NCBI RefSeq assembly: GCF_016623585.1
Contig: NZ_JAEHFY010000003.1
Location: 124,001-188,000, forward strand
Direction: 5' to 3'
Source of the DNA: Pedobacter segetis
Lineage (GTDB): Bacteria > Bacteroidota > Bacteroidia > Sphingobacteriales > Sphingobacteriaceae
Length of the DNA: 64,000 nt
Positions 35,839 to 64,000 of the stretch are shown here, piece after piece. Each line of letters starts with the position of its first letter. Within the stretch, counting starts at the first letter, position 1. The position numbers and the translations under genes were made by a program. The notes under the pieces were generated by a model that was given only the letters and a program-made list of their open reading frames with translations, was not told where the DNA came from and ran no database searches.

Positions 35839-35940
35839 AACCATAATTGTAATTATTTAGTTAATATCAACGTAAGGGAATAATAAACAGGGAATTAATC
35901 GTTATTTTGATAACCGCACCAAATCATCGCTTATTTATAA

Positions 35941-39477: not shown

Positions 39478-40490
39478 GGCGATTAATTTTTATATTATTT
39501 GTGTTGTTTGGTGTGCTAAAAAGTTCTTTGGCGCAGCAAAAGCCCCAATACACCCAATATATACTCAACAATTTTATCATCAACCCTGCAATTTCGGGTA
39601 TAGAAAATTATATCGATGTTAAAGCAGCTACCCGGCAACAATGGGCGGGTTTAGAAAACGCACCTCAAACATCTTATTTAACGGCTCATATGCCTTTAGG
39701 CAACACAAATGATTGGGGAAGTGCAACTTCTTATGGCATGGTTGGCGATAATCCACTTGGCAGGAGTTATAAATCTGATTATGAAGCTTCTAAATCTCAT
39801 TCTGGTATAGGTTTAATAGCCGTTGTAGATAAAACCGGCCCATTGAGCAATAATTCCTTTAATTTAACTTATGCCTATCACATTGGTTTGGCCCCAAGGT
39901 TAAATTTGGCGGTTGGTGTTGGGGCAGGAATATCTAAGGTAACTTTAAATACAAATGATATCACTTTAGAAAACCCAAACGATGCAGCTATTGCCAATAG
40001 TGGTAATATAAACCGGATAAAACCCGATCTTAACGTTGGCATTTGGCTTTACTCGGCAGAGTTTTTCTTTGGGGCTTCGGTTCAGCAAATTTTGCCACAA
40101 ACCCTTTCATTTTCCGATCAATCTTCTTACAATCAAGGGAAAACCGTTCCGCATTCTTTTTTTACGGCAGGTTATCGTTTTTGGTTGAGCGATGATGTTA
40201 CCGTTATACCTTCTATAATGGTAAAGTATGTAAACCCTGTGCCTTTAGGGATTGATTTTAATACCAAAGTTGCCTTTAGGGATAAATTTTGGGTAGGCGG
40301 GGCTTACAGAAAAGACGATTCTTATTCTGGAATGGTGGGTTTTAACCTAGGTTCATTAATTAACGTAGGTTATGCCTATGATTTTACGCAGTCTGCATTA
40401 AACACCGTTTCAAGGGGTTCGCATGAGATTGTGATTGGCCTTACGCTGAACAATCATTACAAAGTTACCTGTCCGCAAAAATTATGGTAA
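39474..40490 (+). CDS. PorP/SprF-family T9SS outer-membrane protein
   Basis: The 338-residue protein has a signal peptide (cleavage after LAQ, about residue 20) and begins QKPQYTQYILNNFIINPAISGIENYIDVKAATRQQWAGLENAPQT, the signature of the PorP/SprF family. The rest is amphipathic beta-barrel. SprF-type proteins attach or anchor a specific T9SS substrate and are normally encoded next to it. This one overlaps the stop of the second adhesin by four bases, so that adhesin and probably its neighbour are its partners. Confidence 0.93.
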   Translation: MRRLIFILFVLFGVLKSSLAQQKPQYTQYILNNFIINPAISGIENYIDVKAATRQQWAGLENAPQTSYLTAHMPLGNTNDWGSATSYGMVGDNPLGRSYKSDYEASKSHSGIGLIAVVDKTGPLSNNSFNLTYAYHIGLAPRLNLAVGVGAGISKVTLNTNDITLENPNDAAIANSGNINRIKPDLNVGIWLYSAEFFFGASVQQILPQTLSFSDQSSYNQGKTVPHSFFTAGYRFWLSDDVTVIPSIMVKYVNPVPLGIDFNTKVAFRDKFWVGGAYRKDDSYSGMVGFNLGSLINVGYAYDFTQSALNTVSRGSHEIVIGLTLNNHYKVTCPQKLW

Positions 40491-48668: not shown

Positions 48669-50207
48669 TCAAACCCTATCCACCGCCACTTTATAAGTTG
48701 GGTCTTCTAAGATATTTACATCAATAACATCACTGGCGTTGTGCAAAAGTTGTTTGCAATCATCGCTTAGATGTCTCAAATGAAGTTTTTTTCCTGCCAA
48801 TTTATACCTATCTGTTAGTTTATTCAAGGCATCAATCCCCGACATATCGGCCACTCTACTATCGCTGAAATCTATAATTACTTCATTTGGGTCATTTACT
48901 ATATCAAATTTTTCGTTAAATGCCGTTACAGACCCAAAAAATAGTGGCCCATAAATTTCATAATGTTTGATGCCATTCTCATCTATATATTTTCTAGCCC
49001 TGATGCGTTTGGCACTTTCCCAAGCGAATACCAATGCAGATATAATGATACCTATTAAAACGGCCAAAGCTAGATTGTGGAGCCAAATGGTAATTGCTGC
49101 AACTAATATCCCAATAAAAATATCTTGTTTCGGCATTTTATTGATGATCCTAAAGCTGATCCATTCAAATGTGCCAATTGCGACCATGATCATTACGCCA
49201 GTTAAAGCGGCCATGGGTAACAAACCAATTATAGGGGCACCAAAAAGTATGATCATCAGGATGGTGATAGAAGCAACTATTCCAGACAATCTGGCTCTTG
49301 CCCCGGCAGATAAATTAACCAAGGTTTGGGCAATCATAGGGCAACCACCCATTCCAGAAAAGAAACCGTTCAAAATATTGGCGCTTCCTTGGGCAATGCA
49401 TTCCCTGTTTCCGTTTCCACGTGTTGCCGTCATTTCATCAACTAAATTTAACGTCAATAAGCCTTCGGTAAGGCCAACACCTGCCATTATGAAAGAATAA
49501 GGCAATATAATTTCTAAAGTTTTAAAACCTAAGGGAATGTTTGGGATGTGAAACGGAGGAAAACCACCGCTAACAGAAGCAATATCGCTAACTGTTTTTG
49601 TATCGATGTTAAACCCTAAAACAATTAAAAACACGGTAATAATAGCAACCAAAGAAGGGGGAACCGCCTTACTTATTTTTGGGAATATAAAAACAATGGC
49701 AATTGTTAAGGCTACCAAACCTGCCATAATCAATAATGGTTGCCCAGTTAACCAGGTTACCTCTCCATTTACAACCGTTTTAAATTGCTCTATTTGAGCC
49801 ATAAATATAATGATAGCCAAGCCGTTAACAAAACCGTACATAACCGGTTGAGGCACTAATCTTATAAATTTACCAAATTTAAAAATCCCTACCAAAAGCT
49901 GCACAACACCTGCTAAAGCAACTGCTGCAAAAACATATTCAATCCCATTAGATTTCATCAAAGCAATTAAAACCACTACGGTTGCACCTGCGCCTCCAGA
50001 AACCAATCCTGGTCTGCCACCTAAAACAGAAGTTACCAAACCCATAATAAAAGCGGCGTAAAGCCCAACCAGTGGTGGGAAACCAGCCAATATTGCAAAA
50101 GAAAGGGATTCTGGCATCATCGTCATGGCTACGGTAATACCTGCCAAAATCTCTACTTTGTAATCTATCTTCTGCTCGAAATTGAATAAGTTAAGTATGG
50201 CTTTCAT
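48669..50207 (-). CDS. SulP-family anion transporter with STAS domain
   Basis: The start is the ATG at 50207 (512 residues, MKAILNLFNFEQKIDYK). Twenty upstream in-frame residues after an earlier ATG do not look like the family. There are about 12-14 membrane helices with the SulP signatures VAMTMMPESLSFAILAGFPP and GLVSGGAGATVV, and a C-terminal STAS domain (about residues 395-505, IDFSDSRVADMSGIDALNKL). SulP proteins carry sulfate, bicarbonate or other anions; specificity is not readable. It is not adjacent to sulfate-assimilation or carbonic-anhydrase genes. The PUL sulfatase lies 10 kb away and any link is speculative. Confidence 0.9.
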   Translation of the reverse strand: MKAILNLFNFEQKIDYKVEILAGITVAMTMMPESLSFAILAGFPPLVGLYAAFIMGLVTSVLGGRPGLVSGGAGATVVVLIALMKSNGIEYVFAAVALAGVVQLLVGIFKFGKFIRLVPQPVMYGFVNGLAIIIFMAQIEQFKTVVNGEVTWLTGQPLLIMAGLVALTIAIVFIFPKISKAVPPSLVAIITVFLIVLGFNIDTKTVSDIASVSGGFPPFHIPNIPLGFKTLEIILPYSFIMAGVGLTEGLLTLNLVDEMTATRGNGNRECIAQGSANILNGFFSGMGGCPMIAQTLVNLSAGARARLSGIVASITILMIILFGAPIIGLLPMAALTGVMIMVAIGTFEWISFRIINKMPKQDIFIGILVAAITIWLHNLALAVLIGIIISALVFAWESAKRIRARKYIDENGIKHYEIYGPLFFGSVTAFNEKFDIVNDPNEVIIDFSDSRVADMSGIDALNKLTDRYKLAGKKLHLRHLSDDCKQLLHNASDVIDVNILEDPTYKVAVDRV

Positions 50208-50721
50208 TAAAATGTTTTTGCGGTTTTCAAAAGTTGCGAAGCTAAGGTTATTAGATCTGGGATGCAAGTTGGCTTTTTAGTTCATTAGGGATTAATTTAT
50301 TTGATGATTTTCTGATCTGGTAAAAACAGAAACTGCTCTGTTAAGTTGATGGCACATTACACAAAGCTAAAGGCAATAAAGAACCTTTAACCGAAAAACC
50401 ATGTAGAAAAAGTTGGAGCCTCGATAGAAAATGCTTACCATAAATATAAAGTTTTCAAGAAAAAAATCATCTACATAGTTTCTATCGTTCAATTTAAAAG
50501 GGCGTGATGATGTTTTTATCCTTTTTTGCGAGAAAGTAAAAAATTGGGTTTGTGCCTATTTTTTTGCATTAAATTTATAATAAAATAATCTATCTATTTA
50601 ATAAGAATGTCTATTAATGCAATGCTTTTTTTGGTTTAGATTTGACAAAAGCAATGGTTTTAATTTACTTAAAATCATTGTTTTAATTAACCAATTACCA
50701 AACCAAATTATTTCCAAAAAA
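50208..50721. other. 514-base gap with interleaved inverted repeats
   Basis: No gene is supported in this divergent promoter region between the SulP gene and the first PUL gene. It contains two interleaved complementary pairs, 50401-50407 with 50470-50476 and 50422-50430 with 50479-50487, and the motif TCATTGTTTTAATT at 50675-50688 that recurs before the hybrid regulator gene. Confidence 0.5.
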
Positions 50722-51804
50722 ATGAAAAGAAAAAAAATCTTTGGGCTGTCTTCATTGCTGCTAATTGCCATGAGTTTTACCCAATGCACCAAATCACAGG
50801 AAGAAGTTGCTGTAACAAAAAGTGGAAGTGGGGATGTGGCTGTTGTAAAAACGGATGCCAATGCCACTAAAATTTTTCCGGGGCAGGTATGGAATGACAT
50901 CTACGGGAAAGCAATTGTGGCAACCGGGGGTGGTATTTATTATGAAAACGGATTTTACCACTGGTACGGAGAGGCAAAAAAGGCCGGTAGCTCTCCTGGT
51001 AAAGGTGGTATAGATGCAGGCATGCACTGTTATCGTTCTAGGGATCTGATCAACTGGAACGATTTTGGCGTAGTGCTTCCACTGTCTTCCGATCCTAATA
51101 GCGATATTGCCGACGGGTGTATTTTTCAACGCCCTAAAGTGGTAAAAAACAACAGCACAGGCAAATACGTTGCGTTTTTTAAACTTTATTTAAAAGGAGA
51201 AGGTTATACCAGAACTTTTTTGGGTATAGCAACGGCAACTTCGCCAACAGGCCCCTTTACCTATGTTAAAAAGGTACTTGCTACATCTAATAAGGGCTCT
51301 GGTGATTTTACCATGTTTAAAGATACCAACGGAGATTTGTACCATATCGCCGTACGCAGATCTGATCGTAAACTGGTAAAAGCAAAAATGAGTAGCGATT
51401 ACATGACCCCTGGAACTTATTCAGAAATGACGGGCGTACAAACTAACACCGAAGGGCCAGCTATTTTTTATAAATCTGGCGTTTACCATTTATTGGGTTC
51501 TGGATCTAACGGTTGGGATTCAACGGCACCAAGATATTTTACAAGTTCAAGTCTTGGCGGCCCATGGACTTCGCAATCTAACCCTTGCACTGGTACAAAC
51601 CCTATCAATGGCGTAGGAAGCGATTTAACTTGGGGAGGCCAGTCAACCTTTATATTCCCGATAGAAGGGCATGAAAACCAATATGTTGCCATGTTTGATA
51701 TTTGGGTGCCAGAACGCAGGTATATTTGGCTTCCATTTAGGGTAGATAATCAAAAGATGCACATCGCCTGGCAAAATAGCTGGGACCTTACCTGGTATCC
51801 TTAA
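50722..51804 (+). CDS. GH43-type lipoprotein, exo-beta-1,3-galactanase-like (copy 1)
   Basis: The start is the ATG at 50722 (360 residues), which gives a proper lipoprotein signal with lipobox SFTQC (Cys22). The rest is a five-bladed propeller of family GH43, closest to the exo-beta-1,3-galactanase group (GH43_24). It has GIYYENGFYHWYGE (Glu84), IFQRPKVV, TEGPAIFY (Glu244, probable acid) and GGQSTFIF (Gln307). Galactanases of this group are known to use a Gln where other GH43 have a catalytic-base Asp, and Gln307 fits. Where copy 2 has NAHSAG this protein has VATGGG, losing a His near the sugar site. It is probably surface- or periplasm-anchored. A terminator follows. Confidence 0.82.
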   Translation: MKRKKIFGLSSLLLIAMSFTQCTKSQEEVAVTKSGSGDVAVVKTDANATKIFPGQVWNDIYGKAIVATGGGIYYENGFYHWYGEAKKAGSSPGKGGIDAGMHCYRSRDLINWNDFGVVLPLSSDPNSDIADGCIFQRPKVVKNNSTGKYVAFFKLYLKGEGYTRTFLGIATATSPTGPFTYVKKVLATSNKGSGDFTMFKDTNGDLYHIAVRRSDRKLVKAKMSSDYMTPGTYSEMTGVQTNTEGPAIFYKSGVYHLLGSGSNGWDSTAPRYFTSSSLGGPWTSQSNPCTGTNPINGVGSDLTWGGQSTFIFPIEGHENQYVAMFDIWVPERRYIWLPFRVDNQKMHIAWQNSWDLTWYP

Positions 51805-51844
51805 TAGTTACTTGTTTCATCTGGTAAAGAAACTGTTTAATTTA

Positions 51845-51878
51845 AAACTGCCTCTATAAATTAGTAGGCAGTTTTTTT
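51845..51878 (+). terminator. Terminator after the first GH43 gene
   Basis: Arms AAACTGCCT (51845-51853) and AGGCAGTTT (51866-51874) pair perfectly and are followed by TTTTATTTTAT. Confidence 0.8.
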
Positions 51879-51894
51879 ATTTTATAGATATTAA

Positions 51895-51970
51895 TAGCGG
51901 CGATTTAGCAAAGCTGATAAGCAACAGTTCTTAAGCGTTTTAATACAGATTGGGAGCTTTGCTACCGCTA
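51895..51970 (+). promoter_or_regulatory. Long bulged hairpin upstream of the hybrid regulator gene
   Basis: Outer arms TAGCGG (51895-51900) and CCGCTA (51965-51970) and inner arms TAGCAAAGCT (51906-51915) and AGCTTTGCTA (51955-51964) form a bulged stem of 16 paired bases around a 39-base loop. It lies 135 bases before the regulator start, past the terminator of the previous gene. It could be a leader-RNA structure or an operator. The rest of the 301-base gap shows only the TCATTGTTTTAATT motif at 52080. Confidence 0.4.
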
Positions 51971-52105
51971 AGTTTCTTGTTTTTCTTTCCAGATTATTTT
52001 AAAATGTTTTAACTAATCAATTTTGTGTTTTAAAGATGTTTATTGCCGTTAAAGGATATTCTTTTTTGATTTAATGAACTCATTGTTTTAATTTGGAGAA
52101 GAAAA

Positions 52106-55100
52106 ATGGGTACATCATACAAAGAAAAAATTAAGCATCGAAACCTATGGCTAAAAAGCTTTGCCCTATTTTCTAATTTGTTTTTTTTTATCTATCAACC
52201 TTCTATCGCTCAAATAAAAATAGAAGCACCAATAACTATTGATAACGGATTGATTAACAATGAAGTTACGGCAATTCATCAAGATAAATTTGGCTTTTTA
52301 TGGTTTGGCACCAGGGGTGGCTTAAACCGTTACGATGGTTATGATTTTAAGATCATTAGATCAAGGCCGCAATCTAAAAACAACCTTTCTAATCAATCTG
52401 TTGAAGTTATAGCAGAAGACAAAGACCATAATTTATGGATCGGTACTAAAAGCGGCGGGCTAAACAGCTATAATCTGTTAAAAGATTCTATCGTTCATTA
52501 CCGCCCAACAGCCAATATTAAAATTCAAGAAATAAAATCATTAACTATTGATAGTTCTGGAACCTTGTTTATTGGTGCCACCCAAGGCCTCTTTACTTTA
52601 AAAAACGGTAAATTTAACAGTGTTAATAACAACAAATGGGGCGTTAAAGCACTAAAAGTAGATAGAAAGGGCCGTGTTTGGGTTGGTGCATTAAATGGGC
52701 TTTTCTTGTACGATCAACCCTCAAATTCTTTAGTCCCCGTAATCTTAGATAAGATACGTCCCAATATAACTTCCATAGCAATTGACGATGAAAAGGACGT
52801 TTTATACCTCGGTACATGGGATTCTGGTTTAGTAGAGTATAAAATAAATACTCAAACAACCACTCAGTTTCTTTTTAACAAAAACATTTCTAGCACTAAA
52901 CTAAGCAACAATACCTATAGGGTTTTTTTGGATAAAGATAAAAATCTTTGGGTTGGCTCTTGGGGCAATGGGCTAAAGAAGTTTAATATACATAACAAAA
53001 AATTTGAGAGCATTAAAATCAAACCAGATGATGTTCATAACACCAATTATGATATTGTTTTATCCATAGAGCAAGATAAGGCCGGTATTATTTGGGTAGG
53101 GGTTGATGGGGGAGGGGTATGCAAAATTAATCCGCTTAGGAAAAAATTTAAAACCATAACTTATTCTGAAGGGCAAGGCAAAGGCTTAACCAACACCCAT
53201 GTTACGGCTATTCATCAAGACGCAAGAAATGCGTTATGGATTGGTGCTAAAGACGGGGGCCTACTTTACAGTAAAGATGGTGTTGATTTTTCACAGAAAA
53301 CGGAACTATCTCCAGAGGCGGTTATAGGAACTTTTTTAGAAGATGAAGAAAAAGATTTATGGATCGGTTCATCAAGCGGATTATATATTTACCGCGACTT
53401 TTATAACAAAAGTAATAACGTTCTACATTTTAAAAACTTAAGCACTAATAAAGCTTTAAACGGATTAAAAGTAACGGCCCTCATTAAAGATCATCATCAA
53501 ACAATTTGGATAGGTACGCAAGATTTTGGTTTATTTAGGTTTAATGATGCTGATGGAGAAAAGCCAAATTTTATAAGATATGCCGATGAAGAAGGGCAAA
53601 AGGGAGCCTTGCAAAACCGAAGGATAAGCTGTTTATTGGTTGATCATCTTAATAGGCTTTGGGTAGGTACATATGATGGTTTGCACCTATATAACCCATT
53701 AAAAAATAATTTCGATGTTTTTAATACCGAAACAAACCAAAACAATACCATCTCAAACAATACGATTCTTACTTTGGCAGAAGACCATGCCGGCAATATT
53801 TGGATAGGTACGCAACAGGGCCTTAATAAGCTTAATTATCAAGATAGCGAACATTACAGCTTTAAAAGCTATTTTGAACAGGCCGGTTTCCCTAATGATT
53901 ATGTACATGCCATACTTGTTGATGAGTTGGATAACATTTGGATGAGTACCAATAGCGGGATTACCAAGCTAGTGGCCGAAACGCATAAATTTAGAAATTT
54001 CGATAAAAGAGACGGTGTTTCCTCAAATACGTTTTCAGAAAACTCATGTTTTTTGGCAAACGATGGTAAAATGTTTTTTGGGGGTATTTCTGGTCTAACT
54101 TATTTTTATCCGGATAGCATCCGTTTAAACCGTTATGCCCCGCCGGTATTTATTACAAATTTAACAATAAACAATACCGATATTGACGTAGGAGACAAAG
54201 TGTTGGGAGATAAGATCTTATCAAGGGCCTTGTTCTTAACAGATAAGATTACGCTTTCTTACAAAGAAGATATCGTTTCTCTGTCTTTTTCGGCATTAGA
54301 TTTCCACGCTTCGGATAAAAATCAGTACAGGTATAAACTAGATGGATTTGATAAAGAATGGGTGCAGGCAGGTAAAAGAAGGAGTGTAACTTATACAAAC
54401 TTGCCACCGGGATCTTATGTTTTTAAGGTTGAGGGGTCAAATAGCGATCAAATTTGGAACACCAAAGGCGCCGAACTTAAAATAGTGATTTTTCCACCGC
54501 CTTGGAGAACTTGGTGGGCCTATACGCTTTATTGCCTGGCAATTATTTTTCTGCTATGGCTATCAAGATCTAGCACATTATCTAGGATAAAACTTAAAAA
54601 CGATTTGCACATAGCTGATCTAAACTATAAAAAAGAGCATGAAATAACCGAAATAAAAAGTAGGTTTTTCGCCAATATTTCGCATGAGTTTAGAACACCC
54701 CTATCATTAATAATTGGGCCAATAGAAGGGTTAATGCAAGCAAAGAAATTTGATCCAGCTACTAAAACGGTGCTTCAAAAGGTACAAAACCAATCTAAAA
54801 GACTTTTAAGTTTAATTAATCAATTGCTAGATTATAACAAGGCCGAGGTTAACGCATTAAAGTTAAACGCTATCAACCAAGATATTTTACCAATTTTAAC
54901 GGAGGTTTATGAATCTTTTGCCGATGAGGCAAGCAGGAAAAAAATAGTGTATTTGTTTGAAACAAACCAGAAACAGATATTCCTCAACATCGATAAAAAC
55001 AAACTTGAGAATATAGTTTATAACCTTTTATCAAACGCATTTAAATTTACGCCAAACGGCGGTAGTATTGTTTTTAAAATAGCACTTAATGAGATAAGGG

Positions 55101-56176
55101 AAAAATGTGAAATCTCTGTTTCAGATTCTGGAAAAGGTATCAACAGCAATGATAAATCAAAAGTTTTTGATCGTTTTTATCAGGTTGCACAAGCAGAACC
55201 CGGCAAATATGCCGGCACAGGTATAGGTTTGGCTTTTGTAAAAGATTTGGTTGAGCTGCACCACGGAGAGATTGTGATAGAAGATAATGAACCATCGGGA
55301 ACCATCATTAAAGCCTCGTTTCCCTTTTCGGCATTTTTTAAGGATCTGCACCCACCAGCATTAACAAATGTTGCCCAAAAATATACTCTAAACCAAGGGA
55401 TAAGCGAACAGCCAATTCTTTTAGTGGTTGAAGATAACGAAGAGCTTAACCATTATATATCAGAAACCTTAAAAGCAATAGGTAGAGTTGTTTCTGCTAA
55501 AGACGGAAACGAAGGTTTTACAAAGGCTGCACAGATTATTCCGGATATTATAATAAGCGATGTAATGATGCCGATCAAAAATGGTTACCAACTATGTGCA
55601 CAGCTTAAGGCCGATAATAGGACATCGCACATCCCAATTATTCTTCTTACCGCAAAAAGCGATGACGAATCTCATTTAAAGGGTGTAAACCTAGGTGCAG
55701 ATAGTTATTTGGCCAAACCTTTTAACCCGGTAATATTAATATCGTACGTCAATAACCTAATTGAAAACCGTAAAAAACTAAAAGACCTTTTTGCGCACCG
55801 CTTAAACCTAGAGCCCAGTTTGGTAGAAGTAAATTCTGCAGAAGAAGAGTTTGTGAAAAAAACGATCGATTATATTGAAAAGCATATGGGCAAGGGTGAG
55901 TTTTCTATGGATGATATGGCGGCTTTTCTTAATATGAGCCGTTCTACATTTTACAGAAAACTAAAAGCATTAACCGGTATGTCTGGCACCTATTTTATAC
56001 GATTGATAAGGCTTAAAAGAAGTGCTCAGCTTTTGGCAACCGGAGAATACACCGTAAGTACAGCTGCTTATGAAGTTGGTTTTAGCGATCTTAAATACTT
56101 TAGAAAAAGCTTTCAAAACCATTTTGGGGTAAACCCCTCTAAATATGCAGAAACAGAGAATAACAAAATCAAATAA
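52106..56176 (+). CDS. Hybrid two-component sensor/regulator (HTCS) of the PUL
   Basis: The 1356-residue single-chain regulator has, in order: signal/anchor (about 15-36), a periplasmic two-bladed propeller sensor built of Reg_prop repeats (repeated IW(I/V)GT segments from about 60 to 690), a Y_Y_Y domain (about 730-795), a membrane helix (about 800-820), a HisKA domain (FFANISHEFRTP, phospho-His860), HATPase_c (NLLSNAFKF, DSGKGI, GTGIGLAFV), a receiver domain (ISDVMMP, phospho-Asp1152; Lys in LAKPF) and a C-terminal AraC-type HTH (about 1250-1345). HTCS proteins bind a defined oligosaccharide directly and activate the neighbouring PUL. All phosphorelay residues are present. It lies between the two GH43 genes. 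Confidence 0.95.
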   Translation: MGTSYKEKIKHRNLWLKSFALFSNLFFFIYQPSIAQIKIEAPITIDNGLINNEVTAIHQDKFGFLWFGTRGGLNRYDGYDFKIIRSRPQSKNNLSNQSVEVIAEDKDHNLWIGTKSGGLNSYNLLKDSIVHYRPTANIKIQEIKSLTIDSSGTLFIGATQGLFTLKNGKFNSVNNNKWGVKALKVDRKGRVWVGALNGLFLYDQPSNSLVPVILDKIRPNITSIAIDDEKDVLYLGTWDSGLVEYKINTQTTTQFLFNKNISSTKLSNNTYRVFLDKDKNLWVGSWGNGLKKFNIHNKKFESIKIKPDDVHNTNYDIVLSIEQDKAGIIWVGVDGGGVCKINPLRKKFKTITYSEGQGKGLTNTHVTAIHQDARNALWIGAKDGGLLYSKDGVDFSQKTELSPEAVIGTFLEDEEKDLWIGSSSGLYIYRDFYNKSNNVLHFKNLSTNKALNGLKVTALIKDHHQTIWIGTQDFGLFRFNDADGEKPNFIRYADEEGQKGALQNRRISCLLVDHLNRLWVGTYDGLHLYNPLKNNFDVFNTETNQNNTISNNTILTLAEDHAGNIWIGTQQGLNKLNYQDSEHYSFKSYFEQAGFPNDYVHAILVDELDNIWMSTNSGITKLVAETHKFRNFDKRDGVSSNTFSENSCFLANDGKMFFGGISGLTYFYPDSIRLNRYAPPVFITNLTINNTDIDVGDKVLGDKILSRALFLTDKITLSYKEDIVSLSFSALDFHASDKNQYRYKLDGFDKEWVQAGKRRSVTYTNLPPGSYVFKVEGSNSDQIWNTKGAELKIVIFPPPWRTWWAYTLYCLAIIFLLWLSRSSTLSRIKLKNDLHIADLNYKKEHEITEIKSRFFANISHEFRTPLSLIIGPIEGLMQAKKFDPATKTVLQKVQNQSKRLLSLINQLLDYNKAEVNALKLNAINQDILPILTEVYESFADEASRKKIVYLFETNQKQIFLNIDKNKLENIVYNLLSNAFKFTPNGGSIVFKIALNEIREKCEISVSDSGKGINSNDKSKVFDRFYQVAQAEPGKYAGTGIGLAFVKDLVELHHGEIVIEDNEPSGTIIKASFPFSAFFKDLHPPALTNVAQKYTLNQGISEQPILLVVEDNEELNHYISETLKAIGRVVSAKDGNEGFTKAAQIIPDIIISDVMMPIKNGYQLCAQLKADNRTSHIPIILLTAKSDDESHLKGVNLGADSYLAKPFNPVILISYVNNLIENRKKLKDLFAHRLNLEPSLVEVNSAEEEFVKKTIDYIEKHMGKGEFSMDDMAAFLNMSRSTFYRKLKALTGMSGTYFIRLIRLKRSAQLLATGEYTVSTAAYEVGFSDLKYFRKSFQNHFGVNPSKYAETENNKIK

Positions 56177-56465
56177 GTCTTTTAAAACATGATTTATATC
56201 TATAAACCATGCTCAAAACACATTTGAACCCCTAAACCCTCAGCTTTGATTTCCTAGACCCCCTATTAAATCTGCTTTAAAATCTATACTTGTAACAGGA
56301 AAATCAAACGTTTCCTAACAACCAATTTTATCCTTTAAATAGCAGTTCTTAAGTCAGGTGTTTTTTTGTTTATAAACCATTTACTTTTAGTAAAACCATT
56401 TTTAAGCATAAACCCAAAATGTAAGATATGCTTTTTAAGGTTAACCGAGTTTAATCATTGTTTAT
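56177..56465. other. Regulator-regulator gap with repeated TATAAACCAT
   Basis: The 289-base gap between the HTCS and AraC genes has no gene. TATAAACCAT occurs at 56201-56210 and again at 56371-56380, and its first nine bases recur 19 bases before the susC start (62992-63000). This could be a regulator site, but the motif is AT-rich. Confidence 0.35.
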
Positions 56466-57371
56466 ATGAATTCAGATTCTACAAATTTCAAGAAAGACGG
56501 TTTTGATGGCCAAAAAAAACTTGTGTTACCAAAGTCTGTGATCAGCAAATTTTGCTTAAATAATTCTTTAATCAATAAGGCCTTTGTTACGGATATAGGC
56601 TACTATCCAAAAGCAAAATATCATTATATGGAGAGGCCCAAAGGTGCGCAACAGAATGTACTAATTTATTGTGTTGAAGGAAGGGGAGAAATAATTATTG
56701 AGCAAAAGGCATCTGTTATTACGGCGGGTAATTTTTTTTTAATACCTAACGGTAAACCGCATACTTACAGGGCAGACCCAGAAAACCCTTGGACAATTTA
56801 CTGGTGCCATTTTTCGGGAGAGCAAACCGATCGGATAATACAACAGATCAATGATAAGTATGGGGCCTTTAAGGCCGGTGTTAGCTATAACGATGCAAGG
56901 ATTGATCTTTTTGAAAAAATTTTTAACACCTTAGAGATAGACTATAGTTTTGAAAGCGTAAGTTATGCCAATTTGATTTTTATTCAGTTTTTGTCCCTTT
57001 TTCTATTTGCAGAAAAACTTAACCCAAGTTTTATCGATAACGATGTAGATCTTATCCAAAAATCAATCAAGTTTATGGAGAAAAACATGGATAAATCTTT
57101 AACAATAAATGATTTAACAAACCATATCAATGTTTCGCCAAGTCATTATTCTAGCGTTTTTAAAAAGAAAACAGGTTTTTCTCCAATTGAGTATTTGAAC
57201 AGGTTAAAAATTCATAAAGCTTGTTATTACCTGCAGTTCACAAACCTTAGAATAAAAGAGATTGCCTATAAGGTAGGTATTGATGATCAGTATTATTTTT
57301 CAAGGTTGTTCAATAAAACAATGGAATTTTCTCCTTCGGTTTATAGAGAGCAAAATTTGTCGTTAAAATAA
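56466..57371 (+). CDS. AraC-family transcriptional regulator with cupin sensor
   Basis: The 301-residue protein has an N-terminal AraC-type cupin (about residues 40-160: QNVLIYCVEGRGEIIIEQK, FFLIPNGKPHTYRA, WTIYWCHFSGEQ) and a C-terminal double HTH (about 200-295: LTINDLTNHINVSPSHYSSVFKKKTGFSPIEYLNRLKIHKACYYL, then IKEIAYKVGIDDQYYFSRLFNK). Such regulators bind a mono- or disaccharide. It lies next to the HTCS, so the locus has two sugar-responsive regulators. A terminator follows at 57393. Confidence 0.92.
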   Translation: MNSDSTNFKKDGFDGQKKLVLPKSVISKFCLNNSLINKAFVTDIGYYPKAKYHYMERPKGAQQNVLIYCVEGRGEIIIEQKASVITAGNFFLIPNGKPHTYRADPENPWTIYWCHFSGEQTDRIIQQINDKYGAFKAGVSYNDARIDLFEKIFNTLEIDYSFESVSYANLIFIQFLSLFLFAEKLNPSFIDNDVDLIQKSIKFMEKNMDKSLTINDLTNHINVSPSHYSSVFKKKTGFSPIEYLNRLKIHKACYYLQFTNLRIKEIAYKVGIDDQYYFSRLFNKTMEFSPSVYREQNLSLK

Positions 57372-57392
57372 ATTTGGTTTGGGTTAGTAGTA

Positions 57393-57426
57393 AGGGATGG
57401 TTTTTATAAACTGTCCCTTTTTTATT
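57393..57426 (+). terminator. Terminator after the AraC regulator gene
   Basis: Arms AGGGATGGTTT (57393-57403) and AAACTGTCCCT (57408-57418) pair over 11 bases with two wobbles around TTAT, followed by TTTTTTATTTTT. Confidence 0.8.
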
Positions 57427-57567
57427 TTTATATAGTAAGATAATCTATTTTTTTTGTTTAATTGTCTATTCCTCATCTGGTTTTTTGCCTTTAGATTTGG
57501 GCATAACCTTTAGATTAAAATAATATATTCATAAAGCTTTGTATCAGTTTATCAATCAAATAATTAA

Positions 57568-58668
57568 ATGAGAAAAATTAGGGTTTGGGGTTTGTTGTTG
57601 GGTTTATTTACGTCAATTGTTTCTTTGCAACTTTCTTGTAAAACAAAAAGTTCATCTGCTGTCTTAAACAGAAACTTAAACCAAGATTCTGTTGCTCCGT
57701 TACAAACAAAAATTTATCCCGATAGGTTGTGGAGAGACACCAATGGAAACCCTATTAATGCCCATAGTGCGGGCATTTACTATGAAAAAGGTTACTATTA
57801 TTGGTACGGCGAGCATAAATTAGAGCGTACTTCAGAAACTAAAGGGCATACAGATGGTGGGATGCATGCCTACAGATCAAAAGATTTAATAAACTGGGAA
57901 GATTTAGGCTTAGTGCTTTCTGTTGATTATAAAAACAAAAACGCAGATATGGCCTATGGTTGTATCTTTCAAAGACCAAAAGTGGTTTATAATGCTAAGA
58001 CCAAAAAATATGTCGCTTTTTTTAAACTGTATTTAAAAGGCGTTGGGTATGGGGTTTGCCACACGGGTGTTGCAACCGCAGATCATCCCCAAGGGCCGTT
58101 TACCTATAGCCATAAATTTTTAGCAAGTTCCCAAAACGGTTCTGGCGATTTTGCACTTTACCAAGATGAAAAAGGTAATTTATATCACTTTACTGTGCGC
58201 AAATCAGACAGGGTTTTTGTAAAAGCAAGAATGACAGATGATTACATGAACCCCGCTACAGAATATTTGCCATGTAAAGGGGTTACCGTAAGCACAGAGG
58301 GCCCAGCCATATTCTATAGCTCAGGGACTTACCATTTGTTAGGCTCTGGCTCTACCGGCTGGAACCCAAATCCGGCAAGATATTTTACCAGCAAAAGTTT
58401 AGAAGGGCCTTGGGTAAACGAGGGAAACCCTTGTTCTGGCATAAACCCTATCAGTAATTTAGGCCCAGAGAAAACATACGATGGTCAATCAACCTTTATC
58501 GTGAAAATTGAAGGAAAAAGCAACCAGTACATTGCACTGTTTGATGTTTGGAAACCAAAGGATATTTATAACTCTAAATATATTTGGCTACCATTCAAAT
58601 TGAAAAACGATAAGATGCAGATCAGCTGGATCGATAGCTGGAATATGGATTGGTACCATAAAAATTAA
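57568..58668 (+). CDS. GH43-type lipoprotein, exo-beta-1,3-galactanase-like (copy 2)
   Basis: The 366-residue lipoprotein (lipobox LQLSC, Cys24) is a paralogue of the protein at 50722-51804. It keeps the full galactanase-like N-terminal motif NPINAHSAGIYYEKGYYYWYGE (His66, Glu82), IFQRPKVVYN, TEGPAIFY (Glu244) and DGQSTFIV (Gln307). In the fungal and clostridial enzymes I remember the residue before RPK as Glu, whereas both proteins here have Gln136. That may mark a separate specificity. The predicted action is release of galactose from beta-1,3-galactan ends. galM follows after 46 bases, so the two are probably co-transcribed. Confidence 0.85.
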   Translation: MRKIRVWGLLLGLFTSIVSLQLSCKTKSSSAVLNRNLNQDSVAPLQTKIYPDRLWRDTNGNPINAHSAGIYYEKGYYYWYGEHKLERTSETKGHTDGGMHAYRSKDLINWEDLGLVLSVDYKNKNADMAYGCIFQRPKVVYNAKTKKYVAFFKLYLKGVGYGVCHTGVATADHPQGPFTYSHKFLASSQNGSGDFALYQDEKGNLYHFTVRKSDRVFVKARMTDDYMNPATEYLPCKGVTVSTEGPAIFYSSGTYHLLGSGSTGWNPNPARYFTSKSLEGPWVNEGNPCSGINPISNLGPEKTYDGQSTFIVKIEGKSNQYIALFDVWKPKDIYNSKYIWLPFKLKNDKMQISWIDSWNMDWYHKN

Positions 58669-58714
58669 CCAAATCTTTTATTTAAAATACTTTACCATAA
58701 ATTGAAATGGTTTT

Positions 58715-59734
58715 ATGAATGTTATGAAAGCAGGAGGTTGTTTAACCTTTAAAACAAGTTTAGAACAGGTTTCCTTAAAAACCAATTATGGCGAAGTGGT
58801 AGTAACAAACGCAGGTGCTTCTGTAATCGCAATAAGAATTCCGGATAAAAATGGGGTATTAGAAAACATAGTATTGAGCTATGATAAAATTTCTAGCTAT
58901 TTATGCAACCCTATGTACTTGGGCAGCACAGTTGGCAGAGTTGCCGGGCGGATCGCTTCTGGCCAATTTAAAATGGCGGATCGCACAGTATCATTAACAA
59001 AAAACGAAAAATCTGTAAACCATTTGCATGGAGGTTTTAGTGGCTTTAGCAATAAAATCTTTAAAACAGAAAATGTATCGGCAGGTACTGATAGTGCTGG
59101 CGTTGAGTTTTATTATTGTAGCGAAGATGGGGAAGAGGGATACCCTGGGAAGGTAGAGTTAAGGGTTAAGTATGTTTTTGTAAACAATAAGCTTACCATA
59201 TTTTATAATGCGGTTACCAATGCACCAACACCTTTAAATTTAACCAATCATTGTTATTTTAACCTATCTGGCAACAAAAACAAAGCTTTGCAACAACAGC
59301 TTTTTATTGCAGCTAGTAATGTTTTAGAAACCGATGCAGATTATATACCTACGGGTTATTTAACTCCGGTAAAAAACTCGCCTCATGATTTCAATGATCC
59401 AAAAGCCATATCAAAAGATAAGTCAAAATTGTATTCTGGTGTTTATAACGAGTATTTTGTACTAGATAAATCTTTAGGCCCGGCTGCAACAATTTATGAT
59501 GAGGATAGCGGAAGAAAATTGAAAATAGATACTAATTACCCTGGGATACAGTTTTATTCTGGAGATTATTTAGAAAATGATTTCAGACCGTGTGAAGGTA
59601 TATGTTTAGAGGCTCAGCATTACCCAGATGCTGTAAACCGTCCAAATTTCCCCCCAATTATTGTTAAACCCGGAGATACTTACCAGCACTTTATCAGTTA
59701 CAGTTTTTCTGTGCAAGAAAACGGTATTCAATAA
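58715..59734 (+). CDS. galM: Aldose 1-epimerase
   Basis: The 339-residue galactose-mutarotase-fold enzyme has VNHLHGGFSGF, NLTNHCYFNLSG (catalytic His) and GICLEAQHYPDAVN (catalytic Glu), then a PGDTYQHFISYSF C-terminus. It interconverts alpha and beta anomers of galactose or glucose and fits the use of beta-galactose released by the GH43 enzymes. There is no clear signal peptide, so cytoplasmic action is likely. It starts 46 bases after the second GH43 gene. Confidence 0.93.
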   Translation: MNVMKAGGCLTFKTSLEQVSLKTNYGEVVVTNAGASVIAIRIPDKNGVLENIVLSYDKISSYLCNPMYLGSTVGRVAGRIASGQFKMADRTVSLTKNEKSVNHLHGGFSGFSNKIFKTENVSAGTDSAGVEFYYCSEDGEEGYPGKVELRVKYVFVNNKLTIFYNAVTNAPTPLNLTNHCYFNLSGNKNKALQQQLFIAASNVLETDADYIPTGYLTPVKNSPHDFNDPKAISKDKSKLYSGVYNEYFVLDKSLGPAATIYDEDSGRKLKIDTNYPGIQFYSGDYLENDFRPCEGICLEAQHYPDAVNRPNFPPIIVKPGDTYQHFISYSFSVQENGIQ

Positions 59735-59918
59735 ATAGTTGTGGGTAACAATATGGTTATAAATTAAAGTAAAGTTAAAATGCCCCCATTTTTTGATCAA
59801 TTTACGTATCTCTTAAAACAATAGAAAAGCTAATTTTAGGTTTATAAGCTTAGCAATTAAATCCCCATCAGGTTACCTTGTAATGCTAAAGGTTAAAACC
59901 ACATCCAAATTAAAAAAA

Positions 59919-62027
59919 ATGAAGTTTAGAAATTATAGATCCTGTTTTAAAGTTTGCTTTGTAGTGTATTTAATTGGTATTGCAACTGTTTATGCCCAAA
60001 CTAGCATAAAACCACTTAAAAAGCCAAATATCATTTACATTTTAACAGATGATTTAGGTTACGGGGATGTAGGTGCATTTTTTCAAAATTTACGACAAAA
60101 AACTAATGATAGATCAGAGCCTTGGACTGTAACCCCCCATCTAGATAATATGGCAATTGAAGGGGCAATGCTTACCAACCATTATGTTGGTGCACCGGTT
60201 TGCGCACCATCAAGGGCATCTTTACTCTCTGGGCTTAGCCAGGGGCATGCCAATGTGAGGGATAACCAGTTTGACAAAGCAATTGCAGATAATTATACCC
60301 TAGGCAATGTATTACAAGCGGCCGGTTATACAACTGCCGCAATCGGAAAGTGGGGGCTGCAGGGAAATAAAAAGTGGGACAAAGATGCAGAGAAATGGCC
60401 TGCATATCCTTTAAAAAGAGGTTTTGATTATTATATGGGTTACGTTGGGCATGGCGATGGGCATGAGCATTATCCAAAAGAAGGGCCAAGTAAAATGTAC
60501 AATGGTGGGCCAAAAAAGGTTTATGAGGGTTACAAGGAAATTAGCCAAACTTTAGATAAATGTTATACCGGAGATTTATTTACAGCCTATGCTAAAAAGT
60601 ACATAGTAGATCATACAAAAGGCAAAGAGAAAGAGAAACCTTTTTTTATGTATTTGGCCTTTGATACACCACATGCAGTTTTAGAGCTTCCAACACAGGC
60701 ATACCCTAAAGGCTTTGGTTTAAGGGGTGGTTTGCAATGGACGGGCAAGCCTGGAGCCATGATAAATACCGCTTCTGGAGAGGTTGATTCTTGGATGGAT
60801 CCATTTTATAGCAATGCAACTTATGATGATGATAAAAACCCCGCAACGCCCGAAGTGCCTTGGCCTAACGTTTATAAAAGATATGCAACCATTACCAAAA
60901 GAATTGATAACCAAGTGAATGACATTTTGGTGCTTTTAAAAGATTTAGGAATAGACCAAAATACATTGGTTGTTTTTTCATCAGACAATGGCCCATCAAT
61001 AGAATCTTATTTAAAAGAACCATACAGGGCCGATTTTTTTAACAGTTTTGGCCCCTTTGACGGGATTAAAAGAGACATTTTAGAGGGAGGAATGAGGGAA
61101 CCAACCATTGCTTGGTGGCCTGGCCATATAGCTGCAAGGCAGGTAATTAACAGCCCAAGTATCTCTTATGATTGGCTGCCAACATTTACAGACGTAGCAG
61201 GGCTCTCTGCACCTGTTAACACAGATGGTGTTTCTTTACTGCCTTCTTTAACAAATACGGGCAAACAAGATACAAGTTTGATCTATTCTGAATATTTTGA
61301 AAATGGCAAAACACCCAACTATTTAGATTTTGCCAGCAATAACAGAGGAAGGCTAAGAAAGCAAACTCAAATGTACAGATATGGTAATTACGTAGGTGTG
61401 CGTTATGATATTAAAAGCGCTGACGATGATTTTGAAATTTATAATGTAGTGAACGATCCAAAGCAATCAAAAAATTTGGCGGCTAGTATGCCCCAGTTAC
61501 AAAATTATTTAAAGAATAGGGTTTTAGAAGTTCGTATGCCAGATAGTACTGCCATGCGGCCTTATGATAGTACGGCAATTGCTGCAATTACTGATGAAAT
61601 GTTTACCAAAGGCTTATCATGCAAAAATTTTGACAACCCTGGCCCTTGGATAAGCAAGATAAGCAATCAAAAAGCCAATGGAGAAAGCGTTGTTAAAACT
61701 GTTGACCCATCAAAATTTATTGCTAAGAAACCACAGCTATTGCTTTACCAAGGTTATATAAATGCCCCTACCGATGGAAAATATACATTTTACCTTAAAG
61801 CCTCTAATAAAGCATTTGTAAAAATACACGATGCAAATGTGATAGATGCAGATTATGGATATAAAGGAGGAGAAAGCAGAGAATCTAGCATTAATTTAAA
61901 AGCAGGGCTGCACCCCATAAAAATTTATTTTCTTTACCGCCCTAATATTGTTAATAAACTAAACATATCGTGGGAAGGGCCATCTACCTCAAAAGAAAGC
62001 ATTAACCAAACGGTTTATCTACATTAA
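59919..62027 (+). CDS. Type I sulfatase with PA14-like C-terminal domain
   Basis: The start is taken at ATG 59919 (702 residues), giving a compact signal peptide ending TVYAQ. An ATG at 59883 would add 12 residues. Sulfatase signatures are IYILTDDLGYGDV (metal Asp pair), the formylglycine site VCAPSRASLLSG (Cys95) and SSDNGP, followed by a fold-typical EGGMREPTI. It therefore needs a formylglycine-generating enzyme, which is not in the window. The C-terminal ~120 residues (LLLYQGYINAPTDGKYTFYLKASNKAFVKIHD…GLHPIKIYFLYRP) are PA14-like and probably bind carbohydrate. The product is extracytoplasmic and is predicted to remove sulfate from the PUL substrate. Confidence 0.88.
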   Translation: MKFRNYRSCFKVCFVVYLIGIATVYAQTSIKPLKKPNIIYILTDDLGYGDVGAFFQNLRQKTNDRSEPWTVTPHLDNMAIEGAMLTNHYVGAPVCAPSRASLLSGLSQGHANVRDNQFDKAIADNYTLGNVLQAAGYTTAAIGKWGLQGNKKWDKDAEKWPAYPLKRGFDYYMGYVGHGDGHEHYPKEGPSKMYNGGPKKVYEGYKEISQTLDKCYTGDLFTAYAKKYIVDHTKGKEKEKPFFMYLAFDTPHAVLELPTQAYPKGFGLRGGLQWTGKPGAMINTASGEVDSWMDPFYSNATYDDDKNPATPEVPWPNVYKRYATITKRIDNQVNDILVLLKDLGIDQNTLVVFSSDNGPSIESYLKEPYRADFFNSFGPFDGIKRDILEGGMREPTIAWWPGHIAARQVINSPSISYDWLPTFTDVAGLSAPVNTDGVSLLPSLTNTGKQDTSLIYSEYFENGKTPNYLDFASNNRGRLRKQTQMYRYGNYVGVRYDIKSADDDFEIYNVVNDPKQSKNLAASMPQLQNYLKNRVLEVRMPDSTAMRPYDSTAIAAITDEMFTKGLSCKNFDNPGPWISKISNQKANGESVVKTVDPSKFIAKKPQLLLYQGYINAPTDGKYTFYLKASNKAFVKIHDANVIDADYGYKGGESRESSINLKAGLHPIKIYFLYRPNIVNKLNISWEGPSTSKESINQTVYLH

Positions 62028-63019
62028 CAACCCCATTAAGTTATGCAGCTTTAGATTTATCGCTAAAAATTAAGTTTAAACTAAACTTAAAGAGTTTTTA
62101 AAATAGAGATAGATGAAATCTATTAAGGATAAAATATCGCAAATTTTAATGATTTAGGGTTTGGCCACAGTGCCGTTTTTTAAACGGCATATCCATAAAA
62201 TAATCTAAAATCAATTATCATATACATTCACTTAAAAGAAACACATTTGTCTTTTAAATTTAACCATAAAAAAGTATTTAAGTAAATTTATGATGGTTAT
62301 GAACGGCACCACAAAACATTAGATATTTTATTTTTAAGGCAAAAGCTTGCATACCTGATTTTTAGGTTTAAATGCCCAACAACCTATTCTAATTTGCCTT
62401 TTCTCCTTAAATAAACCAAAGAATTTCAAACCTTTCAAATACTCCGCTCTTCTTCTCAAGAATTTAATTTTGCTGAGTATCTATAAACTCTTTACTTCAT
62501 ATTTTTATCAAAAATATCCGTGGTTAATTAGCAAACAAATGGTGTTTTCTTATTATTTCTGGTTAATGCAGCTTTTAGCAGAACAGGTATTTACTACCTT
62601 TTGCAAGGTATTTAAACTCTCTTACAATACGATATTACCATTTTTATGGATAATTTTCATCTATCGTTAAGATACTTTTGACCTACCAATTATACTTAAA
62701 ACCAAAAAAGAACAGATAATAAGCCAAAAATTATTTCAATGGTTTTTTCATTAAATCATCTGAAAAAAATAAGCTAACCTATATTAATACTCAATACTTT
62801 TTTTGGGATAAATAGACTTAAAATAAGCTGTATAACCCGCTTTACAACCCTAAAAGTTTAACCATATTTTAAAAAGGTTTGCTAAGGATTTAACAATAAA
62901 AAAAGCATTGAACAAAAGGGATAAGGTAATGGTTTGGGCCAATACAATCTTTAGGTGCTTTTAATGCTAAAAAAACCAATAAAAAAACCACTATAAACCA
63001 ATAAATTAAATAAACAATT
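62028..63019. other. Gene-free 992-base region upstream of susC
   Basis: I see no credible gene. The region contains a hairpin at 62070-62090 (arms TTAAGTTTA/TAAACTTAA, loop AAC), just after the sulfatase stop and possibly its terminator, and a second at 62171-62189 (arms TGCCGTTT/AAACGGCA, loop TTT). TATAAACCA lies at 62992-63000. A 66-codon TTG-started frame at 62470 lacks any family character. A long leader or regulatory RNA before susC is possible. Confidence 0.5.
62070..62090 (+). terminator. Possible weak terminator after the sulfatase gene
   Basis: TTAAGTTTA (62070-62078) and TAAACTTAA (62082-62090) pair perfectly around AAC. The following AGAGTTTTTA has only a short T run, and the stem is AT-rich, so the call is weak. 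Confidence 0.35.
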
Positions 63020-64000
63020 ATGAAGTACGCTTACAGTTTTAAAATCTTTAAAAGGTTCTTTTATTTGTGCTTTCTTTTTATGTCGTTAAAATCTTTTGCG
63101 GATGATAGAATAAAGGAAAGCCATTTACATTACGATTTACTAAAAAGTACCGATTGGGCAAATTTATCAGTTACAATTAAAATTACAGGTACCGTAACAG
63201 ACGATACCGGCGAACCACTTCCAGGCGTTAGTATTAAGGTAAAAGACACCAACATTGCCACAACCACAAGCGTTGATGGTAAATACACCATCAATGCGCC
63301 TGATGCCAATGCAAAATTACAGTTCAGTTTTATAGGTTTCATTGCCCAAGAAGTAACCATTGGGTCAAGAACCACCATCAACATTCAATTAAAAAACGAT
63401 ACGAAGTTATTAAACGAGGTTACCGTTGTTGATGTAGGTTTTGGCAATACAGAAAAGCGGGCAGATTTAACAGGTTCTATAGCCTCGGTAAATGTTAAAG
63501 ATTTACAAAAGGCACCAGTAACTTCTTTTGAACAGGCTTTGGCAGGCAGGGTGGCTGGGGTCCAGGTTATTTCTTCAGATGGGCAGCCGGGCGATCCTTT
63601 ACAAATTGTGGTAAGGGGCGCTAGCTCTATAAACAACTCTAATTCGCCGTTATATGTTATTGATGGTTTGCCGGTAGAAGATCCAGACAACAATAATTTG
63701 AACCCCGCAGAGATTGAATCTATCACCATTTTAAAAGATGCCTCATCTACGGCAATCTATGGCTCTAGAGCAGCAAACGGAGTTGTAATCATAACAACTA
63801 AGCAGGGTAAACTGGGTAAAAGTGTAGTAAATTATAATAATTATTTTGGGCAAAATATTACTACCGGAAGGGTAGATTTAATGAATGCTGCCGAGTTTGT
63901 GAACCTACAATATGAGTTAGATCCGGCATTTACAGATCGGGCATATTTCAATAAAAATCCTGATGGATCAAAATTTATCGACTCATTGCCTCAATATGAT
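63020..64000 (+). CDS. SusC/RagA-type TonB-dependent receptor, 3' truncated by window end
   Basis: Translation from the ATG at 63020 runs open to the window edge (327 codons). After a signal peptide (about residues 1-27) there is a CarboxypepD_reg-like domain (ITGTVTDDTGEPLPGVSIKVKDT…DGKYTINAP…FSFIGF), then the start of the plug domain with ALAGRVAGVQV, the SusC-type VVRGASSINNSNSPLYVIDG segment, and IESITILKDASSTAIYGSRAANGVVIITTK. SusC proteins import oligosaccharides across the outer membrane with a SusD lipoprotein, which should be encoded just beyond the window. It is the import part of this PUL. The leader upstream is almost 1 kb. Confidence 0.93.
   Translation, partial: MKYAYSFKIFKRFFYLCFLFMSLKSFADDRIKESHLHYDLLKSTDWANLSVTIKITGTVTDDTGEPLPGVSIKVKDTNIATTTSVDGKYTINAPDANAKLQFSFIGFIAQEVTIGSRTTINIQLKNDTKLLNEVTVVDVGFGNTEKRADLTGSIASVNVKDLQKAPVTSFEQALAGRVAGVQVISSDGQPGDPLQIVVRGASSINNSNSPLYVIDGLPVEDPDNNNLNPAEIESITILKDASSTAIYGSRAANGVVIITTKQGKLGKSVVNYNNYFGQNITTGRVDLMNAAEFVNLQYELDPAFTDRAYFNKNPDGSKFIDSLPQYD

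Follow-up and report, generated by a model that had tools for sequence, protein, structure and literature searches.

A polysaccharide utilization locus of Pedobacter segetis in which a PL24-like ulvan lyase gene accompanies variant GH43_24-related genes

Background

Among the polysaccharide utilization loci (PULs) described so far, the closest published analogue of the locus reported here is the Bacteroides plebeius system PUL5/PUL13 for sulfated arabinogalactan protein (AGP) (mBio 2021, PMC8406133). The locus in question lies at the right-hand end of a 64,000-nucleotide stretch of Pedobacter segetis DNA, called the window below (assembly GCF_016623585.1, contig NZ_JAEHFY010000003.1; G000:C33:124001-188000 in our numbering), runs past its end, and encodes glycoside hydrolases (GH), polysaccharide lyases (PL), a sulfatase, regulators and the transport proteins SusC and SusD. 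The B. plebeius GH43_24 enzyme needs an added sulfatase before it can act on wine AGP, the anterior lyase site of the GH145 enzyme cuts the rhamnose-glucuronate (Rha-GlcA) linkage (PMC8406133), and GH145 and PL42 are structurally akin to PL24 and PL25 (PMC8377490). The two systems are alike in being SusC-type loci that combine a GH43_24 or GH43_24-related gene, a beta-propeller lyase for Rha-GlcA linkages (predicted in the case of P. segetis) and an S1 sulfatase. The B. plebeius loci are distinguished by the GH145 lyase, a GH105 and a working GH43_24, whereas the P. segetis locus has PL24 and PL38 lyases, a GH106, a sulfatase with a PA14 tail and GH43s carrying Gln in place of a substrate-reading Glu, and has no GH105; genes of each kind are present, but its GH43s are variant and its lyase is of another family.

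Two further comparisons are useful. The ulvan PUL of Portibacter marinus (loci L034/L035/L037 of our set) likewise has a PL24-like lyase adjoining a GH106, and a sulfatase; GH78, GH88/105, a GH43-GH3 fusion and two sulfatase domains, one of them sharing an open reading frame (ORF) with GH78, occur only there, whereas PL38, GH27 and the GH43_24-related enzymes are peculiar to P. segetis. A fungal GH43_24 enzyme uses Glu208 as catalytic acid and Gln263 as base and reads O3/O4 of its terminal galactose through Glu102; no activity could be detected in six variants mutated at these positions, E102Q and E102A included (PMC7939473).

A preliminary description of the window had called the region from position 50722 onward a PUL probably aimed at a sulfated beta-1,3-galactan or arabinogalactan. 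We propose, with about even confidence, that it is a PUL for a sulfated glycan of green-algal type that contains both an L-rhamnose-glucuronate motif and galactose, i.e. either a sulfated, rhamnoglucuronate-decorated arabinogalactan-like polymer or a wall fraction mixing ulvan-type and galactan-type chains. If this is correct, breakdown sets for ulvan and arabinogalactan, usually studied apart, are joined in one locus. A literature search found no paper uniting at least four of PL24, PL38, GH106, GH43_24, sulfatase and arabinogalactan.

Results and discussion

A PL24-like lyase in the SusC operon

The 209,879-bp contig extends another 21.9 kb past the window end (positions there are prefixed L010, position p being window position 62899+p). 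The preliminary description had proposed extending the sequence beyond 64 kb to look for SusD and more hydrolases, and these are present together with lyases. One same-strand run (+) starts with susC at 63020 (63020..64000 in the window, ending at L010:3405) and continues outside the window with SusD (713 aa, L010:3416-5557), a DUF5017 lipoprotein (L010:5572-6471), a PL38-like lyase (L010:6582-7706), a PL24-like ulvan lyase (the BNR_4 protein P0005, L010:7719-9056), a GH106 rhamnosidase (L010:9071-12667) and a GH27 (L010:12700-13947). The ORFs are spaced by 10-32 bp, except for 110 bp ahead of the PL38-like gene, and the gap ahead of GH106 is probably about 230 bp in truth because the GH106 ORF begins inside an intergenic repeat, its probable true start being near L010:9287. 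That repeat (L010:9148-9267) consists of short tandem units of 15, 30 and 12 bp, which the ORF reads as a false N-terminus. The SusD has an extra stretch near residues 440-600 with a weak CBM_5_12 match below the cut-off. With a SusC/SusD pair, carbohydrate-active enzymes and a hybrid two-component system (HTCS) as well as another regulator, the locus has what generally defines a PUL in Bacteroidota, and the earlier PUL call stands.

P0005 matches the "short ulvan lyase" 6byp at E 1e-63 and a PL42 Rha-GlcA lyase only at 1e-8, the scores being 219 bits for ulvan lyases vs 38 bits for PL42. A PL25 label was considered and dropped, the best matches including 6byp and 7czh and 5UAM (PL25) not being among the matches listed at E 1e-3. 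A review names 6byp and 7czh as PL24, 6jq9 not being among the entries named in its accessible part; it lists His146, His167, Tyr243 and Arg259 as functional residues of the PL24 enzyme LOR_107 and reports that R320N abolishes activity (PMC11395424). With an offset of 14 these five residues become H132, H153, Y229, R245 and R306 of the structure chain and align with H112, H133, Y185, R201 and R258 of P0005. All five are kept in P0005 and, indeed, in 24 of 24 aligned rows (P0005 and 23 of the 24 fetched homologues, the partial L060 being left out). P0005 is accordingly called a PL24-like ulvan lyase, and a beta-eliminative cut between 3-sulfated rhamnose and glucuronate is predicted for it. The residue match is the main support for the sulfated green-algal type substrate proposed above, and chiefly on it we read the right-hand part of the locus as ulvan-like. 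The SusC-to-GH27 run and the co-occurrence of PL38, PL24 and GH106 in Flammeovirga and Persicobacter, given below, are further reasons for that assignment.

The protein is rare near home. With the P. segetis genome itself counted in both cases, matches are confined to 1 of 201 family genomes at E 1e-10 and to 2 of 395 phylum genomes at E 1e-20. A pattern-led scan of the genome collection yielded 24 PL24 loci, half of them (12/24), judging by record titles, in Flavobacteriaceae such as Algibacter, Polaribacter and Hyunsoonleella, which are mostly marine genera; the others belong to Pelagicoccus, other Opitutales-type bacteria, Verrucomicrobia, Saccharophagus, Flammeovirga, Portibacter and Bacteroidales or Prolixibacteraceae assemblies. 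Neighbourhoods were taken to at most 10 kb per side, several being shortened by contig ends; blastp was applied to ORFs of at least 350 aa, and the GH43 counts rest on tblastn. In 11 of the 24 loci the surroundings of the lyase include an ORF of about 1170 aa, part of which is sulfatase-like.

The PL38-like protein matches 3nfv at E 6.6e-67 and 8bdq at E 1.6e-47, both of which we take to be PL38 entries. Activity on alginate, glucuronan or glycosaminoglycans is reported for PL38 members in two papers (PMC13027841, PMC11790493). Flammeovirga sp. OC4 has PL24, GH106 and a PL38-like gene, the last only partial because the locus start truncates it, in a stretch of 9 kb. On a Persicobacter plasmid, 26 kb hold PL38 paired with GH106 twice over, and a PL24 accompanied by sulfatase matches. 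On a Catenovulum adriaticum plasmid PL38 adjoins GH106, with PL24-like matches about 90 kb away, and PL24 occurs together with GH106 in Portibacter marinus and Bacteroidales UBA5342. Four of 16 plasmid PL38 records were examined, the Persicobacter region having been picked for its PL24 match.

Much of this would also suit a variant ulvan (and glucuronan) PUL, in which ulvan, together with the glucuronan that Ulva walls also contain, is the substrate of PL24, PL38, GH106 and the sulfatase, the GH43s and GH27 are side-chain enzymes of altered specificity, e.g. for xylose or glucuronate, and no galactan is involved. The ulvan lyases as best match of P0005, the share of Flavobacteriaceae, the sulfatase-like ORFs near the lyase and the Flammeovirga and Persicobacter gene sets are all in its favour, as is the GH43 residue change described below, which would fit a non-galactose sugar. 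It is a possibility that we hold with low confidence: the GH43s and GH27 of the P. segetis locus had a match in 0 of the 24 PL24 loci (tblastn 1e-15, fetched flanks) and are therefore not usual ulvan partners, and its own genes include no GH88/105, GH78 or second sulfatase. The PL24 set combined with GH43 and GH27 as here is unusual.

A GH43 pair with a changed galactose-O4 reader

All genes named in the preliminary description (two GH43s, HTCS, AraC regulator, GalM, PA14-tailed sulfatase and SusC) are present as ORFs, and every Pfam domain behind these names exceeds its cut-off score (GH43, 60.5 and 58.8 vs 32.2 bits; PA14, 34.9 vs 24). GH43A occupies the ORF 50617..51804 (+), in which Met36, at 50722, precedes a lipobox-like signal and is the probable true start; GH43B occupies 57568..58668 (+). 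Both appear lipoprotein-like, with a short hydrophobic segment leading up to a Cys (SFTQC and LQLSC), signal peptides and lipoboxes having been assessed by eye. Their nearest solved structures are 6eug and 6euf, then 3vsf and 7bys, i.e. GH43_24 exo-beta-1,3-galactanases. An AlphaFold model of GH43B (mean pLDDT, the predicted local distance difference test, 42.6) was not used.

Like Pc1,3Gal43A, BT3683 and Ct1,3Gal43A, the pair keeps the equivalents of Glu208, Gln263, Asp158, Arg103 and Trp229; it differs from them in having Gln for Glu102 and Gly for Arg157. We aligned 30 GH43 rows (6 from this genome, 19 loci from other genomes, 2 from genome G345 and 1 each from G113, G577 and G447); the 19 are a subset of a larger pool, GH43_24-like matches at E 1e-30 or better being present in 46 of the 151 family genomes searched. 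The acid, base and Asp158 equivalents are present in 30/30 rows. The Glu102 position is Glu in 25, Asp in 1 and Gln in 4, the last being GH43A, GH43B and two proteins of other contigs (C2 and C13b), all of this genome and forming a single clade with support 0.999 in the 30-sequence tree. The sister of this clade, G345a, is the row with Asp. Gly at position 157 marks a wider group of eight rows, and the Glu57 equivalent is also lost in C13b and G345a.

Because the Glu102 equivalent is Gln, GH43A and GH43B are best called GH43_24-related and not exo-beta-1,3-galactanases, so that "galactanase-like" holds for their kinship and does not extend to the residue that reads galactose O4. The retained acid and base speak against simple decay of the pair. 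An altered specificity at subsite -1 seems indicated, candidates being anionic O3/O4 substituents or a non-galactose sugar. A more specific possibility, which we put forward very tentatively, is that the Gln-clade enzymes have a new activity: keeping the acid and the imidic-acid Gln base but without an anionic O4 reader, they might release a beta-linked sugar with an anionic O3/O4 region (4-O-sulfated or 3,4-pyruvylated galactose, as in galactans of the Codium type) or a non-galactose sugar, in which case the glycan handled by the PUL would be a hybrid rhamnoglucuronate-galactan still bearing some of its sulfate. The Glu-to-Gln change is the most testable surprise of the locus: the clade would be a natural GH43_24-related subclade in which the galactose-O4 reader is changed and the other tested subsite residues are kept, which would allow direct tests of substrate specificity in this unusual, base-lacking group of GH43 and cautions against reading every GH43_24-like annotation as a galactanase.

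The GH43s also bear on whether the substrate could be AGP of the land-plant type, from which the PL24-like lyase and GH106 would remove Rha-GlcA caps in the manner of GH145, PL42 and PL27, with the GH43s cutting beta-1,3-galactan and the sulfatase a minor accessory. The AGP-cap enzymes PL42 and GH145 keep PL24/PL25-type catalytic residues (PMC8377490, PMC8406133). Such a substrate would also agree with the frequency of GH43_24-like genes in the family and with G345, where a related GH43 pair occurs with GH2, GH29, GH95, GH106 and esterases. P0005, however, fits ulvan lyases far better than PL42, the GH43s carry the Glu-to-Gln change, sulfatases lie beside the nearest relatives of the HTCS, and to our knowledge PL38 is in no AGP set, so that we regard this explanation as unlikely.

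The PA14-tailed sulfatase

The S1-type sulfatase (P0003, 59883..62027, +) has the motif CAPSR, which fits the formylglycine motif C-x-P-S-R, and a C-terminal PA14 domain. Its nearest structure is 9s8a (5e-144), for which a literature search by the entry codes 9s8a/9s8x found no paper; an AlphaFold model (mean pLDDT 37.8) was not used. Pfam sulfatase domains have 27 matches in the genome, of which at least one is LtaS-like. Five matches to PF03781, a pair of which shares one frame, point to a maturase of the formylglycine-generating enzyme (FGE) type, whereas TIGR03942 (anSME) had no match in the genome. The capacity for desulfation that had been proposed is borne out to this extent.

The preliminary description had taken the coupling of galactan hydrolysis to desulfation as a hint of algal or other sulfated galactans. 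At E 1e-120 or better, and with P. segetis itself included, 23 of the 201 genomes of the family have a close relative of this sulfatase. Relatives also adjoin FGE and sialidase genes on two Hymenobacter plasmids, in one case next to a GH27 (57% to that of the P. segetis locus) as well, with GH20 and fucosidase genes nearby. Because its relatives are common in the family and stand in sialidase-bearing loci, the PA14 sulfatase is no marker of algal galactan, and by itself the gene is a poor guide to the glycan.

The same plasmid loci, one with its GH27, could suggest that the PUL serves a host glycan, sulfated and glycosaminoglycan-like or of another kind, as could the PL38 members of Roseihalotalea and Akkermansia, which act on glycosaminoglycans (PMC13027841, PMC11790493). 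Neither hexosaminidase nor GH88 was found among the locus genes scanned. We know of no place for PL24 or GH106 in glycosaminoglycan breakdown, and a host glycan is very improbable.

Two minus-strand genes to the left also touch on sulfate. The product of 46239-48155 (-) is a PF00884 protein nearest to LtaS/phosphoglycerol-transferase models, and is neither a glycan sulfatase nor a second sulfatase of the PUL. A SulP-family sulfate permease with a STAS domain (48669-50267, -) is divergent from the PUL and could handle sulfate freed by desulfation.

Regulatory genes and their relatives

The HTCS (52106..56176, +) consists of a Reg_prop propeller, Y_Y_Y, HisKA, HATPase, receiver and AraC-type helix-turn-helix domains, and an AraC-family regulator with a cupin sensor follows (56466..57371, +), both assigned from Pfam domains. 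A terminator-like hairpin lies 3' of the AraC gene (57392-57419); promoter-like and terminator-like sites were not above the shuffled background. The interval 62028..63019, about 1 kb without an ORF of at least 100 aa and assigned to no strand, is presumed to be the control region of the SusC operon.

Scoring of three candidates in each genome gave as nearest HTCS relatives those on G113:C6 (59%) and on contigs C10 (58%) and C2 (51%) of this genome. The G113:C6 locus has a GH43_24 of the Glu type, a GH2 beta-galactosidase, a GH116 and three sulfatases besides a relative of the PA14 sulfatase, and in the C10 locus GH2 and sulfatases are accompanied by two PF11790 proteins. Next to a 47% relative in G084 there is also a sulfatase match. 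The C2 contig also holds GH88/105 and glucuronate isomerase. In G113:C6 (L094) the PA14-sulfatase relative, beside GH43_24, is split over two reading frames, with transposase genes further off. Contig C13 of the P. segetis genome carries, at about 21-70 kb (L069-L071), seven sulfatase-domain matches, two GH43_24-like genes, GH2s, SusCD and an HTCS, i.e. a second sulfated-galactan-like PUL.

Proposed substrate and order of action

The galactan side of the sulfated rhamnoglucuronate- and galactose-containing substrate is favoured by the GH43 structure matches, GH27 and GalM (aldose 1-epimerase, 58715..59734, +, by Pfam), and its sulfation by the sulfatase, the number of sulfatase-domain matches in the genome, the FGE-type matches and the sulfatase-bearing loci of the two nearest HTCS relatives (G113:C6 and C10). 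The sulfated galactan or arabinogalactan first suggested agrees with the sulfatase, the GH43_24 kinship and the published sulfated-AGP PUL (PMC8406133), and does not account for the rest, which is a rhamnose-glucuronate set. A simple beta-1,3-galactan target is not sustained, since PL24, PL38 and GH106 of ulvan/glucuronan type lie downstream and the GH43s are without the O4-reading Glu. Downstream enzymes for an unrelated glycan, which the preliminary description had named as evidence that would speak against it, are in part what these three represent.

Several observations weigh against our proposal. The locus has a single sulfatase, of a widespread kind that is not algae-specific, and the Gln in both GH43s could mean that neither is a galactanase. 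Of the 24 PL24 loci, GH106 had a match in 3 and PL38 in 1 (tblastn 1e-15), and the PL38 plasmid loci of Asticcacaulis and Hymenobacter volaticus had no GH106 or PL24 match at 1e-10, so that PL38, PL24 and GH106 are not a fixed module. The C2 contig, which has a related HTCS, is without a sulfatase match, though with a Gln-type GH43. About 1 kb separates the genes on the left from the SusC operon, and the two groups may respond to different signals. There is, finally, no GH88/105 in the locus, and lyase products need one; the genome has eight GH88/105 matches, four strong (on C2, C10, C6 and C9) and four weaker, one of these under the cut-off, all outside the locus.

In the order of action that we propose, the HTCS would sense an oligosaccharide and switch on the SusC operon, and SusC/SusD together with the DUF5017 lipoprotein would bind and import glycan fragments. 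The PL24-like lyase would cut L-Rha(3S)-alpha-1,4-GlcA linkages by beta-elimination and the PL38-like lyase a second uronate linkage, GH106 and GH27 would strip rhamnose and alpha-galactose, and the S1 sulfatase would remove sulfate. The two variant GH43 lipoproteins might then work on the freed galactan-like chain, starting at the non-reducing end, the released sugar being converted by GalM, and unsaturated uronates would be finished by GH88/105 encoded elsewhere in the genome.

Other features

A second SusC/SusD pair (L010:14949-19624, +, outside the window) lies 1 kb past GH27, its membership in the PUL being uncertain, and is followed by a major facilitator superfamily transporter and a GDSL/CE2 esterase, reaching near the contig end. 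GC content in 2-kb windows is 0.32-0.41 and gives no sign of recent transfer. Further to the left, 31726-40490 (+) holds a tandem of two large PKD / IgGFc-binding / CHU_C proteins, the last domain indicating export by the type IX secretion system, followed by a PorP/SprF gene.

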